From Hyphomicrobiales bacterium (GTDB lineage Bacteria; Pseudomonadota; Alphaproteobacteria; Rhizobiales; Xanthobacteraceae), in the NCBI GenBank assembly GCA_021732625.1, contig JAKFUP010000083.1:1-32341 (forward strand): a stretch of DNA of 32,341 nt. The letters are read 5' to 3'. Both the position numbers and the translations under genes were made by a program. The notes beneath the pieces are model-generated. The model searched no databases, was not told where the DNA came from, and saw only the letters and a list, made by a program, of their open reading frames with translations. Shown here in pieces: positions 1,990-8,506 of the stretch (the first letter of the stretch is position 1; each line of letters opens with the position of its first letter).

Positions 1990-2106
1990 TCGCTGCCGGA
2001 ACCGGTACCTCGATCCTTCAAGCCAGGCTATAGGTTCTGCCAAGGCCGGAACCAAACATCCGGCAGCAGTATGCCGCCATTCTTTCGGTGGCCGGGGAGA
2101 GCGATC

Positions 2107-3222
2107 ATGTTGAGAACAAAGCCGCCATTCCGGGCCGATGAAGTTGGAAGCCTGTTGCGCCCGCAGAGCATCAAGCAAGCTCGCGCGCAGTTCGAAAAAG
2201 GTGAGATCGGCGCGGCCGCGCTGAAGCGCATCGAAGACGATGAAATCGTCAAGGTCGTACGCAGGCAGCAAGAGATCGGCCTGAAGCTCGCGACCGACGG
2301 CGAGTTTCGCCGCTCGTGGTGGCATTTCGATTTTCTTGCCGGGCTGACCGGCTGTGAGCTCTATCATCCCGAGACGGGGATCCAGTTCGCCGGCATTCAG
2401 ACGCGCAACGACTCGGTGCGTGTCATCGGCAAGCTCGATTTCCCGGCCGATCACCCGATGCTGGATCACTTTCGTTTCCTGAAAGCGCAGTGTGACGCTG
2501 TGGGTAACACGCCGAAGATGACGATTCCGTCGCCGGCGGTTTTGCATTTTCGCGGTGGCCGCAAGGCGATCTCGAAGGACGTCTATCCGGATATTGAGCC
2601 ATTTTTCGACGATCTCGGCAGGACTTATCGCAAGGCGGTGAAGGCGTTCTACGACGCCGGCTGCCGCTACCTGCAGTTCGACGATACAGTGTGGGCTTAT
2701 CTCTGCTCGCAGGATGAACTGAACAAGGTGCGCGCGCGCGGCGAGGATGCGGACAATCTGCAGCAGATTTACGCGCGCATGATCAACTACGCGATCGCCG
2801 ATCGCCCTGCCGATATGGTCATCACAACCCATGTTTGCCGCGGCAATTTTCGCTCAACCTGGATTTCGTCGGGTGGCTATGAGCCTGTCGCCGAAACCAT
2901 GCTGGCCGGCACCAACTATGACGGCTACTTTCTTGAGTACGATTCCGAGCGCGCCGGCGGCTTCGAGCCGCTGCGTTTTCTGCCGAAGGGCGACAAGATC
3001 GTCGTGGTCGGCGTGATTACGTCGAAATTCGGTGAGCTTGAGAAGAAGGCCGACATCGTGAGCCGGCTTCAGGAAGCCGCGAAGTATGCGCCGATGGAGC
3101 AACTCGCTGTGTCGCCACAATGCGGCTTCGCTTCGACGGAAGAGGGCAATATCCTCTCGGAAGACGAGCAGTGGGCCAAGCTTGCGCTCGCTGTCGAGAT
3201 TTCCCGAGAGATGTGGGGCTGA
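2107..3222 (+). CDS. Short MetE-type cobalamin-independent methyltransferase (methionine synthase II family)
   Basis: Encodes 371 residues, about half the size of MetE, and corresponds to the catalytic C-terminal barrel only, like Bacillus YxjG/YxjH. The zinc-thiolate site of the family is complete: His242 and Cys244 (THVCRGN), Glu277 (YFLEYDS) and Cys339 (SPQCGF). The enzyme very probably transfers a methyl group to a thiol such as homocysteine; the methyl donor cannot be read from the sequence, and short family members do not necessarily use methyl-triglutamyl-folate. The ATG at 2107 follows GGGGAGA with good spacing, and I prefer it over the upstream frame from 2071. The neighbours purU and, after two small genes, metK and ahcY fit a role in the methyl cycle. 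A 9-base inverted repeat sits upstream (1992-2000 and 2059-2067). Confidence 0.87.
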   Translation: MLRTKPPFRADEVGSLLRPQSIKQARAQFEKGEIGAAALKRIEDDEIVKVVRRQQEIGLKLATDGEFRRSWWHFDFLAGLTGCELYHPETGIQFAGIQTRNDSVRVIGKLDFPADHPMLDHFRFLKAQCDAVGNTPKMTIPSPAVLHFRGGRKAISKDVYPDIEPFFDDLGRTYRKAVKAFYDAGCRYLQFDDTVWAYLCSQDELNKVRARGEDADNLQQIYARMINYAIADRPADMVITTHVCRGNFRSTWISSGGYEPVAETMLAGTNYDGYFLEYDSERAGGFEPLRFLPKGDKIVVVGVITSKFGELEKKADIVSRLQEAAKYAPMEQLAVSPQCGFASTEEGNILSEDEQWAKLALAVEISREMWG

Positions 3223-3640: not shown

Positions 3641-4108
3641 ATGAAGAAAGTAAAACCCTCCGCGAAGAAAAGCGAAGCAAGGGAGACAAAAAGCGCAGAC
3701 TCACCCTCTCGGCTGATCGATGCGCGGATTGATGAACTTGGCGACTGGCGCGGCGCGATGCTTGCGCGGGTCCGGGCTCTTATCAGGAAGGCCGATCCTG
3801 AAGCGGTCGAGACGTGGAAGTGGCGAGGGGTTCCGGTCTGGGAGCATGCCGGCATTATCTGCACCGGGGAGACTTACAAAGCTGTCGTGAAGCTGACTTT
3901 CGCCAAGGGTGCCTCGCTGAAGGACCCGTCGCGTCTCTTCAACTCCAGCCTCGAAGGCAACATGCGGCGCGCCATCGACATTCATGAGGGCGACAAGATA
4001 AATGAAAAAGCGCTGAAGACGCTTATTCGCGCCGCTGTGGAACTGAACACGTCAAAGCAGGCTTCCGCTCGCCCGGCTCGTTCCCCAAAGAAACCCAAAG
4101 GCGCTTGA
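3641..4108 (+). CDS. DUF1801 domain protein
   Basis: Encodes 155 residues. The centre (about 25-135) resembles the DUF1801 / YdhG family: an IDARIDELGDWRGAMLARVRALI helix, then the WKWRGVPVWEHAG strand pattern and VVKLTFAKGASLKDPSRLF, which is characteristic of this uncharacterised small-domain family. Both ends are rich in Lys, Ala and Ser (start MKKVKPSAKKSEAR, end ARPARSPKKPKGA), which suggests basic, probably disordered tails that could bind nucleic acid or a membrane surface; this is inference only. The Shine-Dalgarno signal is weak (CAGGTG). It is 48 bases downstream of the cupin gene on the same strand. Cellular function unknown. Confidence 0.75.
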   Translation: MKKVKPSAKKSEARETKSADSPSRLIDARIDELGDWRGAMLARVRALIRKADPEAVETWKWRGVPVWEHAGIICTGETYKAVVKLTFAKGASLKDPSRLFNSSLEGNMRRAIDIHEGDKINEKALKTLIRAAVELNTSKQASARPARSPKKPKGA

Positions 4109-4208: not shown

Positions 4209-4268
4209 GATAATGGTCCGAGGCGGCTTTTCTTTCGTGGGAATGGCGTGTTAGGAGGATTGGGCTGA

Positions 4269-4397
4269 ATGTCGCTGCCCACTCCATCCCACCAAATCGC
4301 ACCGCATGAAAAACGACGCCTTGCTGGCTCAGATTTCCGACTACTGCCGCGGGGCGGGGATGGCGGAATCGACCTTTGGCCGCCGGGCCGTCAATGA
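4269..4397 (+). CDS. Possible 42-codon leader ORF with strong ribosome-binding site
   Basis: An AGGAGG at 4253-4258 is the best Shine-Dalgarno sequence in this gap. It stands 10 bases before an ATG at 4269 that opens a 42-residue frame (MSLPTPSHQIAP at its start, TGA at 4395-4397). This frame overlaps the first 92 bases of the main gene at 4306 in another frame. The main gene has no obvious ribosome-binding site of its own and no in-frame start codon closer to the AGGAGG. The small frame could therefore be a translated leader coupling translation into the main gene. No homology is recognised, and it may equally be chance. Confidence 0.25.
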   Translation: MSLPTPSHQIAPHEKRRLAGSDFRLLPRGGDGGIDLWPPGRQ

Positions 4398-5661
4398 CGG
4401 AAAACTGGTGTCACGTTTGCGCGAGGGCAAGCGGATCACGACTGACACGCTGGACCGCATTCACGCATTTCTCGGCGACGGATTGCCCGGCGGTTCTGCT
4501 CCAACGCCGCGCCCTGCGCCGCCCATCGAGCGGCGCGATCCACGCGGCAATTTTCGTTTTTTCGAGAACCGGCAGAAGTATCTGCTGTTCGTGCACACCT
4601 GTTCGGAAAAGCGCGTCATCGCAGATCGCGTGGCGCTCGAGCTTGGCAGCATCCACCCCCGGCCGCCGGCGCTGCGTTTGTTCGATGCGGGCTTGGGCGA
4701 CGGTACGGTGCTTGCCCGCGTCATGCGCGCGATGCACGGCCGTTTTCCTCACATGCCATTTTATATCGCCGGCAAGGAGATCAGTTTCGAGGACGTGCGC
4801 CTTGTTCTCGACAAGGTGCCGGATCGCCTGTTCGAGCACCCGTCCAGCATCGTTGTTCTGACCAATATGAACTACGCGGAGGCACCCTGGCTGACGCCAA
4901 AATCGCCCGCCGCTGCCGCCAGCATGATCTGGCGTGACGTGCCATTACGGGGCAATTCGGCAGGCGATTTCGAGACGCAGATCGCTGCGCAAATTCCTTT
5001 TCTGGAAGAGAACTGGCGCGCGAGTGTATCGCCCCGCTCGGGCATGCCGGTCTATGAGCGGCCGGTCGTGTTAGTGCTCTACCGCGAGGACCATCGGTTC
5101 CTGCTGGATTCGATGATCCCGCGCCCTGGCCGGTCCGAAGCCAACTTCGACCTCGTGATCGCCTCGCAGCCGTATCGCGCCCGATCGTCGGTTAATTTCC
5201 GCGCCAAACGGATCATTGCGCCGCTGGCGCAAGCACTGCGGGCCGGAGGGCGGCTGATCGGAATTCACTCTCACGGGCAGGATCCCGGAATGGAGATCGT
5301 CCAGTCTGTCTGGCCCGGAGAAAATCCTTTTGCGGTGAGCCGTCATGAGCTGCTGAGGGCCGTTAAATATGAACTCGGATCGGCCGGGCGGGACCTCAAT
5401 TTTAATGCCTATGCCGATAGCCGCTCGATCTTCAGATATGATATGGAAGCGCTGCCCAACGAGGTCACAGGCCCCATTGGGACGTCCACGGCCTTTGCGG
5501 CCTGGAACGCGGCGGTGTATGTGGCTCAGGTCGAAGATGACCGGCTGACGGAAGTCACCCAGAGCGGCCGCTACCTCGATGCCACCAGAGAGGTTTTGCG
5601 CAAGCACAACGGCCTCTGGTTCTACGACGAATCCTATGTCATCTCGCGCAGGCGGGACTGA
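4306..5661 (+). CDS. HTH-like plus SAM-methyltransferase-fold protein upstream of metK, function unknown
   Basis: Encodes 451 residues. Residues about 5-55 ([20 protein letters not shown], then [12 protein letters not shown]) look like a compact helix-turn-helix domain. After a Pro-rich linker (about 60-75), residues about 90-450 resemble a Rossmann-type SAM-dependent methyltransferase: [12 protein letters not shown] is a convincing motif [11 protein letters not shown] fits motif IV, and [14 protein letters not shown] resembles the strand-5 region. I recognise no named family. It starts at the first in-frame ATG, lacks a clear ribosome-binding site, and ends 58 bases before metK on the same strand. 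The context suggests a protein that binds SAM and either methylates a substrate or senses SAM to control metK. That role is inference; the fold reading is moderate and the substrate unknown. Confidence 0.75.
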
Positions 5662-5688: not shown

Positions 5689-5712
5689 CCGCCGGGTTCC
5701 GGCGGAAGAGGA
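5689..5712 (+). promoter_or_regulatory. Hairpin overlapping the metK ribosome-binding site
   Basis: CCGCCGG (5689-5695) and CCGGCGG (5699-5705) form a perfect 7-bp GC stem with a 3-base loop. Its 3' arm runs into the purine-rich Shine-Dalgarno sequence GGAAGAGGA just before the ATG at 5720. Folding would partly mask the ribosome-binding site, so it could tune metK translation. It is too simple to be called a riboswitch, and no run of T follows to make it a terminator. Confidence 0.4.
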
Positions 5713-5719
5713 TCGATTG

Positions 5720-6916
5720 ATGCGCGGGTCTTATTTGTTCACCAGTGAGTCGGTTTCGGAAGGTCACCCGGACAAGGTGTGCGACCGGATTTCGGACGAG
5801 ATCGTCGATCTGTTCTATCGCGAAGGACCGAAGGCCGGCATCGATCCGTGGGCAATCCGGGCTGCGTGCGAAACGCTGGCGACGACCAACAAGGTGGTGA
5901 TCGCGGGTGAGACTCGCGGACCCGACACCGTTACCAACGATCACATCGAAGCTGTCGTTCGCAACGCGATCAAGGACATCGGCTACGAGCAGGAGGGCTT
6001 CCACTGGAAGACCGCCGACATTCAGATTTTATTGCATCCGCAGTCTGCCGATATCGCGCAAGGCGTCGATGCGCTGCAGCCCGGCACCAACCAGGAAGAG
6101 GGCGCTGGCGATCAGGGCATCATGTTCGGTTACGCCACCAACGAGACAGCAGAGCTGATGCCGGCGCCGCTGTTCTATGCCCACAAGATTTTACGGCTGA
6201 TCGCGGAAGCGCGCCACGCCGGCACCGAGAAGGTGCTCGGCCCAGACTCTAAGAGCCAGGTCACCGTGCGCTATGAAAACGGCAAGCCGGTCGGCGTGCG
6301 CGAGATCGTTGTCTCGCATCAGCATCTGATCGAGGACATGACGTCCAATCAGGTGCGCGAGCGTGTCGAGCCTTATGTGCGCAAGGCGCTTCCCGAGGGC
6401 TGGATCGGCAAGGATACAGTTTGGCACATCAATCCGACCGGCAAGTTCTTTATCGGCGGTCCTGACGGCGACAGCGGTCTGACCGGCCGCAAGATCATCG
6501 TCGACACCTATGGCGGTGCAGCTCCCCATGGCGGCGGCGCATTCTCCGGCAAAGATCCGACGAAGGTTGACCGCTCGGCAGCTTACGCGGCGCGCTATCT
6601 CGCCAAAAACGTTGTCGCCGCCGGTCTTGCCGATCGCTGCACGCTGCAACTCGCCTACGCCATTGGCGTCGCACGTCCGCTGTCAATCTATGTGGATACC
6701 CACGGCACCGGCAAAGTGAGCGAGGACAAGATCGAGACGGCCGTTGCGAAAGCGTTCGACCTTACTCCGCGCGGTATTCGCAAGCATCTCGACCTCAACA
6801 AGCCGATCTACGCCCGTACCTCCGCATACGGTCACTTCGGCCGCGCGCCCGACAAGGACGGCGGTTTCTCGTGGGAGAAGACCGATCTCACCGACGCGCT
6901 CAAGAGCGCTGTGTAA
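5720..6916 (+). CDS. metK: S-adenosylmethionine synthetase
   Basis: Makes S-adenosylmethionine from methionine and ATP in the cytoplasm. The 398 residues are near full family length. All three repeats of the MAT fold are covered: the N-terminal [19 protein letters not shown] stretch binds ATP and metal, [12 protein letters not shown] is the first MetK signature, and [19 protein letters not shown] is the glycine-rich second signature. I chose the ATG at 5720 because it gives the usual [18 protein letters not shown] start and follows GGAAGAGGA; the longer open frame from 5579 overlaps the upstream gene and adds no family sequence. It lies 58 bases after the HTH-methyltransferase-like gene and 156 bases before ahcY, so the three may be transcribed together. 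A small hairpin overlaps the ribosome-binding site. Confidence 0.98.
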
Positions 6917-6936: not shown

Positions 6937-7052
6937 ACCTCTCCCCGTTAACGGGGAGAGGTCGGATCGCAAGCGATCCGGGTGAGGGGCATTTTGAATG
7001 ATGGGCCGCGACGGCCCTCACCTTAACCCTCTCCCCGCAGGCGGCGAGAGGG
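6937..7052. repeat. Palindromic intergenic repeat element between metK and ahcY
   Basis: The gap holds a set of nested inverted repeats. 6937-6962 is a perfect 26-base palindrome (ACCTCTCCCCGTT and its complement). GGATCGC/GCGATCC pair at 6964-6979, GGTGAGGG (6981-6988) pairs with CCCTCACC (7015-7022), GGGCCG/CGGCCC pair at 7003-7017, and CCCTCTC (7027-7033) pairs with GAGAGGG (7046-7052). The layout, with CTCTCCCC arms and a GATCGCAAGCGATC centre, is the dispersed extragenic palindrome found in many copies in Bradyrhizobium-group genomes. Transcribed, it would fold strongly between metK and ahcY and could stabilise, attenuate or process the mRNA. Only this one copy occurs in the window. Confidence 0.85.
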
Positions 7053-7072: not shown

Positions 7073-8506
7073 ATGAGCAACGCCACTGCAAAGAAAGCCG
7101 ACTTCTCCGACTACATCGTCGCCGACATGGGCCTTGCACCATTCGGCCGCAAGGAACTCTCGCTCGCCGAAACCGAGATGCCGGGCCTGATGGCGACGCG
7201 CGAGGAATACGGTCCGAAGCAGCCGCTGAAGGGCGCGCGCATCGCCGGCTCGCTGCACATGACGATTCAGACCGGCGTGCTGATCGAGACGCTGAAAGTT
7301 CTCGGCGCCGACATTCGCTGGGTCTCGTGCAACATCTATTCGACGCAGGATCACGCCGCTGCCGCGATCGCAGCCGCAGGCATTCCGGTGTTCGCGGTGA
7401 AGGGCGAATCGCTGATCGAGTATTGGGACTACACCGCCAAGCTGTTCGACTGGCACGGCGGGGGTCATCCGAACATGATCCTCGACGATGGTGGCGACGC
7501 CACGATGTACGTTCATCTCGGCTTGCGTGCGGAGAACGGCGACACGGCGTTTCTCGACAAGCCGCAGTCCGAGGAAGAAGAAGTGTTCTTCGCGCTGCTC
7601 AAGAAGCAGCTCAAGGAAAAACCGAAGGGTTACTTCAAGGCCATTGCCGATAGCATCAAGGGTGTGTCGGAAGAAACCACCACGGGCGTGCATCGCCTTT
7701 ACGACATGCAGAAGGCTGGCACGCTGCTGTGGCCTGCGATCAACGTCAACGATTCGGTCACCAAGTCAAAGTTCGACAATCTCTATGGCTGCCGTGAATC
7801 GCTGGTGGACGGCATCCGCCGCGGTACCGACGTGATGATGTCAGGCAAGACGGCGATGGTCGCGGGCTTTGGCGACGTCGGTAAGGGCTCAGCGGCGTCG
7901 CTGCGTCAGGCCGGTTGCCGCGTGATGGTATCGGAAGTCGATCCGATCTGCGCGCTTCAGGCGGCGATGGAAGGCTACGAAGTCGTGACGATGGAAGACG
8001 CGGCACCCCGCGCCGACATCTTCGTCACCGCCACCGGCAACAAGGACATCATCACCATCGAGCACATGCGCGCGATGAAGGATCGCGCCATTGTTTGCAA
8101 CATTGGCCACTTCGACAATGAAATTCAGGTCGCGACCCTGAAGAACATGAAGTGGGACAACATCAAGCCGCAGGTGGACGAAATCACATTCCCCGACGGC
8201 AAGCGCATGATCCTCTTGTCCGAAGGCCGCCTCGTGAACCTCGGCAATGCGATGGGTCATCCATCGTTCGTGATGTCGGCGTCGTTCACCAACCAGACGC
8301 TGGCGCAGATCGAGTTGTGGGCGAACAACAAGGACGGCAAGTACAAGAAGGAAGTGTACGTGCTGCCGAAGGCGCTCGACGAGAAGGTAGCGATGCTTCA
8401 CCTGGCCAAGATCGGCGTGACGTTGACCAAGCTGCGCAAGGATCAGGCCGACTACATCGGCGTCAAGGAAACCGGCCCGTTCAAGTCGGATCATTACCGC
8501 TACTGA
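7073..8506 (+). CDS. ahcY: Adenosylhomocysteinase (SAH hydrolase)
   Basis: Reversibly cleaves S-adenosylhomocysteine to adenosine and homocysteine, removing the product that inhibits methyltransferases. The 477 residues are typical for the bacterial form, which carries an insert of about 40 residues. Visible landmarks are the substrate domain ([30 protein letters not shown]), the NAD-binding loop [10 protein letters not shown] near residue 265, the [11 protein letters not shown] stretch, and the C-terminal Lys/Tyr tail ending HYRY that reaches into the NAD site of the neighbouring subunit. The ATG at 7073 follows AAGGA with good spacing. It is downstream of metK on the same strand with a palindromic repeat between them, and a rho-independent terminator follows. 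Confidence 0.98.

Follow-up and report, generated by a model that had tools for sequence, protein, structure and literature searches.

The closest described systems are SahR, SamR, a SAM/SAH riboswitch and MetJ. SahR is a SAH-responsive repressor of SAM-cycle genes (PMC4239095, PMC8877191). The regulator, a member of the ArsR family, was detected in 11 of 15 Rhizobiales, and its predicted targets across many Proteobacteria are ahcY, metH, metF and metK (PMC4239095). Autoregulation of SahR has been suggested as well (PMC8877191). SamR of Xanthomonadales, a distant SahR homologue reported to be ~30% identical and associated with a 24-bp palindrome, is predicted to control metK, and the authors suggest SAM as its effector (PMC4239095). 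In the related Rhodobacterales, metK is controlled by a SAM/SAH riboswitch (PMC4239095). MetJ is a ribbon-helix-helix protein with SAM as corepressor (PMC1282579). In the passages of these papers considered here, no regulator is named for metK of Bradyrhizobium and its relatives, and a search of PMC4842269 revealed no mention of metK, ahcY, methyltransferase or S-adenosyl.

Here, we analyse a gene directly upstream of metK in the window, i.e. the whole stretch of 32,341 nucleotides from a Hyphomicrobiales bacterium (Xanthobacteraceae). The encoded protein combines a DNA-binding and a methyltransferase-type domain, as does the SahR-like protein P0005, and the predicted targets of both types of protein include metK. 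The window's family is tied to SAM-cycle genes and carries repeats at its own promoter, hence the protein would work like SahR without being a member. The helix-turn-helix (HTH) may be of the Cro/C1 (XRE) type in place of the ArsR-type PF01022, and the second domain matches no family in place of PF08241. Control of metK would be shared with SamR, but the protein is not of the SamR family. The logic proposed here is the SAM-dependent control of methionine genes known for MetJ, although MetJ is no HTH-methyltransferase fusion. A hairpin precedes the metK ribosome-binding site at this locus as well, but it has a small loop and no Rfam match, and what lies upstream instead is a gene for a protein, preceded by operator-like repeats.

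Gene architecture and fold

The gene at 4306-5661 (forward strand) encodes 451 aa from an ATG start according to the open reading frame call and its relatives. An N-terminal HTH is followed by a linker and a SAM-methyltransferase-like domain. The HTH (residues 1-59; 4306-4482) is recognized from model helices, from comparison with the structure 3vk0 and from a weak match to Pfam HTH_26 under the cut-off (E = 0.069). The methyltransferase-like domain (residues 80-451; 4543-5658) occurs without the HTH in other Alphaproteobacteria. SAM motif I (residues 125-136; 4678-4713) contains a D-A-G-x-G-D that is invariant in 16 of 16 diverse members aligned, the 15 others being 26-71% identical to the window's protein. 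K-E-x-S is kept in all 16 as well, and the two agree with the hallmarks of class I SAM methyltransferases, a glycine-rich motif I behind strand one and an acidic residue behind strand two. The motif-IV-like segment (residues 281-290; 5146-5175) is largely invariant in the same alignment and its P nearly so. Homologues without the HTH retain the SAM motif and a conserved SQPY segment, which reads SQAF in the most distant member (L185). The gene is real and conserved, and no stop was found in any listed match among 391 sampled genomes of the family.

No credible Pfam or NCBIfam match was found for the protein (P0001), and its relatives gave only scattered weak matches in these collections. Searches of PDB by sequence returned one chance-level match each for P0001, a set of its relatives and the HTH, none of them significant, and PHROGs yielded scattered weak matches only. 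In the open-access literature, we noticed no paper on the gene. The protein belongs to a family without a curated name that consists of an HTH part and a part probably binding SAM. The original prediction, an HTH-like plus SAM-fold protein 58 bases before metK on the same strand, thus holds for the reading frame, the gap and both motifs, which are conserved. It recognised no named family, and none was found in Pfam or NCBIfam.

The HTH was modelled as a four-helix unit over residues 3-57 (helices 3-17, 21-29, 34-39 and 46-57), with a local pLDDT of 82-88 up to residue 50 and of 72 for residues 51-60. The unit resembles Neisseria NHTF (3vk0; Z 5.9, rmsd 2.4, 59 aligned residues). Outside of the HTH, the two structure models are poor (mean pLDDT 60.1 and 59.2), and the rows of the underlying alignment were 80-93% identical save one. 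A Rossmann SAM pocket had been proposed as a check of the original prediction. Structural matches of the whole-protein model were nearly all SAM methyltransferases, with RsmC on top (Z 7.4, rmsd 2.9, 136 aligned) at a level not above background. The domain-only model gave mixed matches including phosphoglycerate mutases and GTPases, again not above background, with histamine methyltransferase on top (Z 6.7, rmsd 5.9, 197 aligned). Foldseek retrieved nothing at E 0.001 for either model. Z values of this size are common by chance. Both models are poor and settle nothing on the fold, hence the methyltransferase assignment rests mainly on sequence motifs.

Distribution and history of the family

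A match to the gene was found in 308 of 391 sampled Xanthobacteraceae genomes, a few of the matches being weak and HTH-sized (e.g., G377, G463 and G506). Across Alphaproteobacteria, the profile matched 37 of 289 sampled genomes. Among these, 18 matches including the window covered the methyltransferase-like domain, two were C-terminal fragments only and 17 covered the HTH part only. The HTH is present in four of the 18 domain-bearing genomes (G000, G240, G248 and G162). Family f119 carries the gene in five of 24 genomes, and the family of G284 in G284 only (one of 59). In a tree of 33 domain sequences, from which L182 was excluded as cut at a contig end with its downstream neighbour out of view, the HTH label requires two changes and homologues without HTH branch outside of the HTH clade. 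We read this as a probable gain of the HTH in one clade, with a loss in the nested pair L173/L193. Provided that the tree is rooted correctly, the domain would therefore predate the fusion. A search of plasmids revealed no relatives, and a search of viral contigs retrieved only L193. The contig of L193 is filed as viral, and genes named by eye as tail-like and restriction-modification-like adjoin this copy without HTH.

Association with metK and the methyl cycle

The ATG of metK (5720-6916, forward strand) lies 58 bases past the end of the gene, and its product matches all three SAM-synthetase Pfam domains (S-AdoMet_synt N, M and C). The next gene in the conserved order is ahcY, encoding SAH hydrolase (7073-8506, forward strand; named by eye from its sequence). 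The gene is preceded by a DUF1801 gene at 3641-4108 and, further upstream, by a Meth_synt_2 gene at 2071-3222. The best 80 of 517 named relatives are close kin from Bradyrhizobium, Afipia, Nitrobacter, Rhodopseudomonas, Tardiphaga and metagenome-assembled genomes. In 80 of these 80 loci, the metK match starts 53-155 bp downstream, with a gap mostly near 60 bp, and ahcY follows beyond metK in 77, the other three reaching a contig end soon after metK. Among 90 genomes sampled from the family, 59 carry the gene and 26 of these have metK directly downstream.

Copies not linked to metK, with HTH or none, lie less than 1 kb from an MTHFR-like gene in 21 of 31 loci. As L243 repeats the genome of L170, this corresponds to 20 of 30 genomes. 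The neighbours belong to either of two subfamilies, are located downstream on the same strand or on the opposite strand, and matched PF02219 in the three tested. The remaining ten of the 30 genomes have no MTHFR-like neighbour, and two of them (L179 and L182) are on cut contigs. L170 is followed by a Meth_synt_2 gene. L185 adjoins a homocysteine S-methyltransferase gene (PF02574), 3.7 kb from metK-ahcY. The methyl-cycle linkage is hence broader than metK itself. The original prediction would have fallen if relatives had lacked linkage to metK or methyl-cycle genes, and the genomic survey found such linkage conserved in both settings. A hydroxypyruvate-isomerase-like gene, named by eye, recurs nearby in six loci (L160, L163-L166 and L183). 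The HTH-less L184 adjoins an aldehyde dehydrogenase gene (PF00171) and genes that read by eye like aminoethylphosphonate breakdown.

The metK gene itself appears to have been exchanged. In 11 of the 80 loci (L066, L074, L075, L077, L081, L085, L095, L104, L107, L114 and L118), metK shares only 56-66% identity with the window's gene, for which the query P0002 begins two codons ahead of the ATG. Ten of these were compared, as metK of L074 was not recovered. Eight form one lineage, 91-99% identical among themselves and ~60% to the window's metK. Those of L075 and L114 form another and are 93-94% identical to metK of G023, a genome in which metK and the gene are not adjacent. Three metK lineages in the same place suggest that metK was swapped in place behind a retained upstream gene.

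The junction with metK contains the hairpin CCGCCGG-GTT-CCGGCGG (5689-5705, forward strand) just 5' of the ribosome-binding site. Junctions were compared in 35 of 67 distinct sequences, after removal of L063 (start unrecognised), of junctions of at least 90 nt (some Afipia and L114) and then of near-copies. A perfect stem of at least five pairs lies within 12 nt of the ribosome-binding site in 30 of the 35, and 18 of the 35 reach P 0.05 singly against mononucleotide shuffles. The paired letters differ among junctions (CCGCC/GGCGG, CGTCG/CGACG, CCGCTGG/CCAGCGG and GGGCCG/CGGCCC), and the hairpin is missing in L074 and L075. Rfam yielded no match over the window at the gathering score and, with E relaxed to 10, none at the junction. 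The lack of a covariance-model match argues against a known SAM/SAH riboswitch at the metK junction. Upstream of the gene, no known riboswitch was recognised either, the search giving only a sub-threshold CRISPR-repeat match on the other strand (E 0.38). A perfect 13-nt inverted repeat without spacer lies between metK and ahcY (6937-6962). Several Rhizobiales metK genes lacking the upstream gene (among L027-L047) often show a CTTGACC...GCTGCAA-like sequence upstream by eye, which is perhaps a metK promoter or regulator site.

Operator-like repeats upstream of the gene

The sequence before the gene contains the half-site GTGGGAA (4237-4243) and, inverted to it, TGCCCAC (4276-4282), both covered by the pattern counts below. 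A third half-site, TCCCACC (4287-4293), was seen by eye within an inverted-repeat arm. All three are given on the forward strand. A MAFFT alignment of 250 bp upstream was hard to read, and the motif was instead found by eye in upstream sequences and then counted on the same metK-linked loci, with diverse loci and f119 added later. Of 80 metK-linked loci (the window and 79 relatives, L070 being left out as too near a contig end), 76 contain TGGG[CA]-N31..37-GCCCA within the final 120 bp before the gene. By comparison, 100 shuffles gave a mean of 0.28 and at most two loci of 80, and of 1580 random windows from the same loci, 12 contained the pattern. The pattern is absent from L060, which has the HTH and lacks the repeats, and from L074, L075 and L114, which keep the first site without the second half-site. 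A stricter element is found in 57 of the 80 loci and spans 45 or 46 bp in 54 of them.

Diverse loci not linked to metK separate by the presence of the HTH. Within 300 bp each, 12 of 12 HTH-bearing loci contain at least three half-sites (3-6) and at least one inverted pair, whereas 13 of 13 HTH-less loci contain at most one half-site and no inverted pair, in stretches that are partly coding because the 300 bp were measured upstream from the domain start. L179 was dropped as too short. Taken singly against 300 shuffles, the HTH-bearing loci range over P 0 to 0.073 for half-sites and P 0 to 0.163 for pairs. The window taken singly reaches P 0.013 for half-sites and P 0.11 for the inverted pair, the excess at a single locus being often modest. 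Distant HTH-bearing loci share the half-site in another arrangement, with an inverted pair shortly before a TTGAC-like box in most of them by eye. In f119, the array was read by eye, with no shuffles, in five of five gene-bearing genomes, and L243, L246 and L247 contain the exact palindrome GTGGGA-N4-TCCCAC. A sigma-70 consensus scan upstream of the window's gene gave 0 matches against 0.8 in shuffles, and a promoter there is only presumed.

The strict element is present as a single copy in the window's genome, at 4237-4282. In a search of 41 genomes, the element is confined to the gene's own promoter, as one copy each, in five of six metK-linked genomes, among them the window's, and absent in the sixth (G019). 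Genomes without the linked gene contain the strict pattern at 0-9 other places and a backwards control matches too, hence the pattern alone is not specific. A single element at the own promoter fits a local autoregulator. L193 lacks the HTH, is nested in the HTH clade and keeps the repeats. Its sister L173 shows no repeats over 450 bp. The repeats kept by L193 raise the possibility that such repeats serve another factor or are a relic.

Relationship to SahR

The SahR-like P0005 combines the ArsR HTH PF01022 with Methyltransf_11 (PF08241), and in G011 its gene is the first of a row that continues with an MTHFR gene and a metH-like gene. Its name rests on this layout and these neighbours, and the P0005 sequence includes one residue ahead of a Met. 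A BLAST comparison of P0005 with P0001 showed no similarity (best E 1.7), and P0001 matches neither PF01022 nor PF08241. Membership in SahR/SamR was rejected on these grounds.

At E 1e-40, 59 of the 90 family genomes contain a SahR-like gene. All 26 genomes in which the gene is linked to metK lack SahR, 25 of them being >90% complete, compared to five of 64 others (G336, G339, G343, G372 and G384). Both SahR and a gene of the window's type occur in 29 of the 90 genomes, and there the latter is not beside metK. The 26 SahR-less genomes with the linked gene look like one clade, and the HTH-bearing loci reflect one clade plus one nested loss. Neither pattern therefore amounts to many independent events, and the absence of SahR from the linked genomes is close to a single event, though a telling one. 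In G343, a gene 76% identical is not beside metK and SahR was not found, making G343 a possible intermediate of SahR replacement. The conserved operator-like repeats and the co-distribution with SahR absence support an action of the protein on DNA. The original prediction had left a choice between a SAM-responsive regulator and a dedicated methyltransferase, and it is the regulator part, action on DNA, that these two observations back.

Proposed mechanism and alternatives

Architecture, linkage, conserved repeats and co-distribution emerge directly from the computational analysis. We suggest that the protein serves as a dedicated transcriptional autoregulator for the metK operon to which its gene belongs, SahR-like in function and unrelated to SahR by sequence, with a probability of about one half. 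The operon would start at the regulator's own gene and run into metK as one transcript. Through its HTH, the protein would recognise the TGGG[AC]A/TGCCCA half-sites that surround the presumed promoter, and the bound form would probably be a dimer or tetramer spanning about four helical turns. The methyltransferase-like domain would bind SAM (or SAH) and thereby tune the grip on DNA. As a result, repression might let SAM-synthetase supply track the SAM/SAH pool. We infer such SAM/SAH sensing, as well as any enzyme activity. The methyltransferase-like domain likely came first, tied to a folate C1 gene (MTHFR-like), and the HTH may have been added once. In one clade, which includes Bradyrhizobium, Afipia, Nitrobacter, Rhodopseudomonas and their relatives, the fusion would then have settled before metK, with SahR absent. 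We favour the view that the regulator stands in SahR's place in this clade.

A trigger enzyme is a serious rival, given the older HTH-less form often found beside MTHFR-like genes, and we consider it a real though lesser possibility. The domain would be an active enzyme of C1 metabolism or the methyl cycle, and the HTH would do no more than bring the enzyme's own gene and, through its position, metK under the enzyme's control. Widespread homologues outside of the HTH clade that keep the SAM motif and the SQPY segment point this way, as does the homocysteine S-methyltransferase gene next to L185. Against this, no family match so far indicates a substrate and catalysis is putative.

A plain C1 methyltransferase appears unlikely. 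In this case, a different regulator would bind the repeats, and the HTH-like segment would be a module for protein-protein contacts or RNA binding. The repeats retained by L193 without an HTH would agree with this, as would the lack of a significant Pfam or PDB sequence match for the HTH. The repeats track the HTH across the diverse loci (12 of 12 versus 0 of 13) and the segment is modelled with good local confidence, both of which argue against a plain methyltransferase. Less probable still is a separately arisen HTH-methyltransferase sensor of the methyl cycle that displaced SahR and remains active. Such a protein could read methylation capacity by turnover, with its operator DNA or the protein itself as possible methylation targets. 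The SQPY segment sits at what we take to be the place where amino-methyltransferases carry xPPY. If true, repression would report the working SAM/SAH ratio rather than mere ligand binding.

Gene-order inertia within one family, i.e. a conserved neighbourhood without functional tie to metK, is improbable. The metK linkage in only 26 of 59 gene-bearing genomes, apparently one clade, agrees with inertia, but three metK lineages share the same place behind the gene, mostly at a gap near 60 bp, and homologues elsewhere adjoin other C1 genes. A true but diverged SahR of the same family is hardly credible, as the shared layout, the overlapping targets and the mutual exclusion of SahR and the metK-linked form in the 90-genome sample stand against the differing domain families, the BLAST result and the 29 genomes carrying both genes.

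Significance

Two observations go beyond the original prediction, namely operator-like repeats that follow the HTH and the absence of SahR in metK-linked genomes. The family extends across Alphaproteobacteria (more than a fragment of the domain in 18 of 289 sampled genomes, the window's included), yet has no Pfam or NCBIfam entry. With a concrete gene and an operator candidate, control of SAM supply in these bacteria becomes directly testable. If the autoregulator reading is true, a second, unrelated methyltransferase-type domain would have been combined with an HTH for the same job as in SahR, and the clade would provide an instance of regulator replacement.
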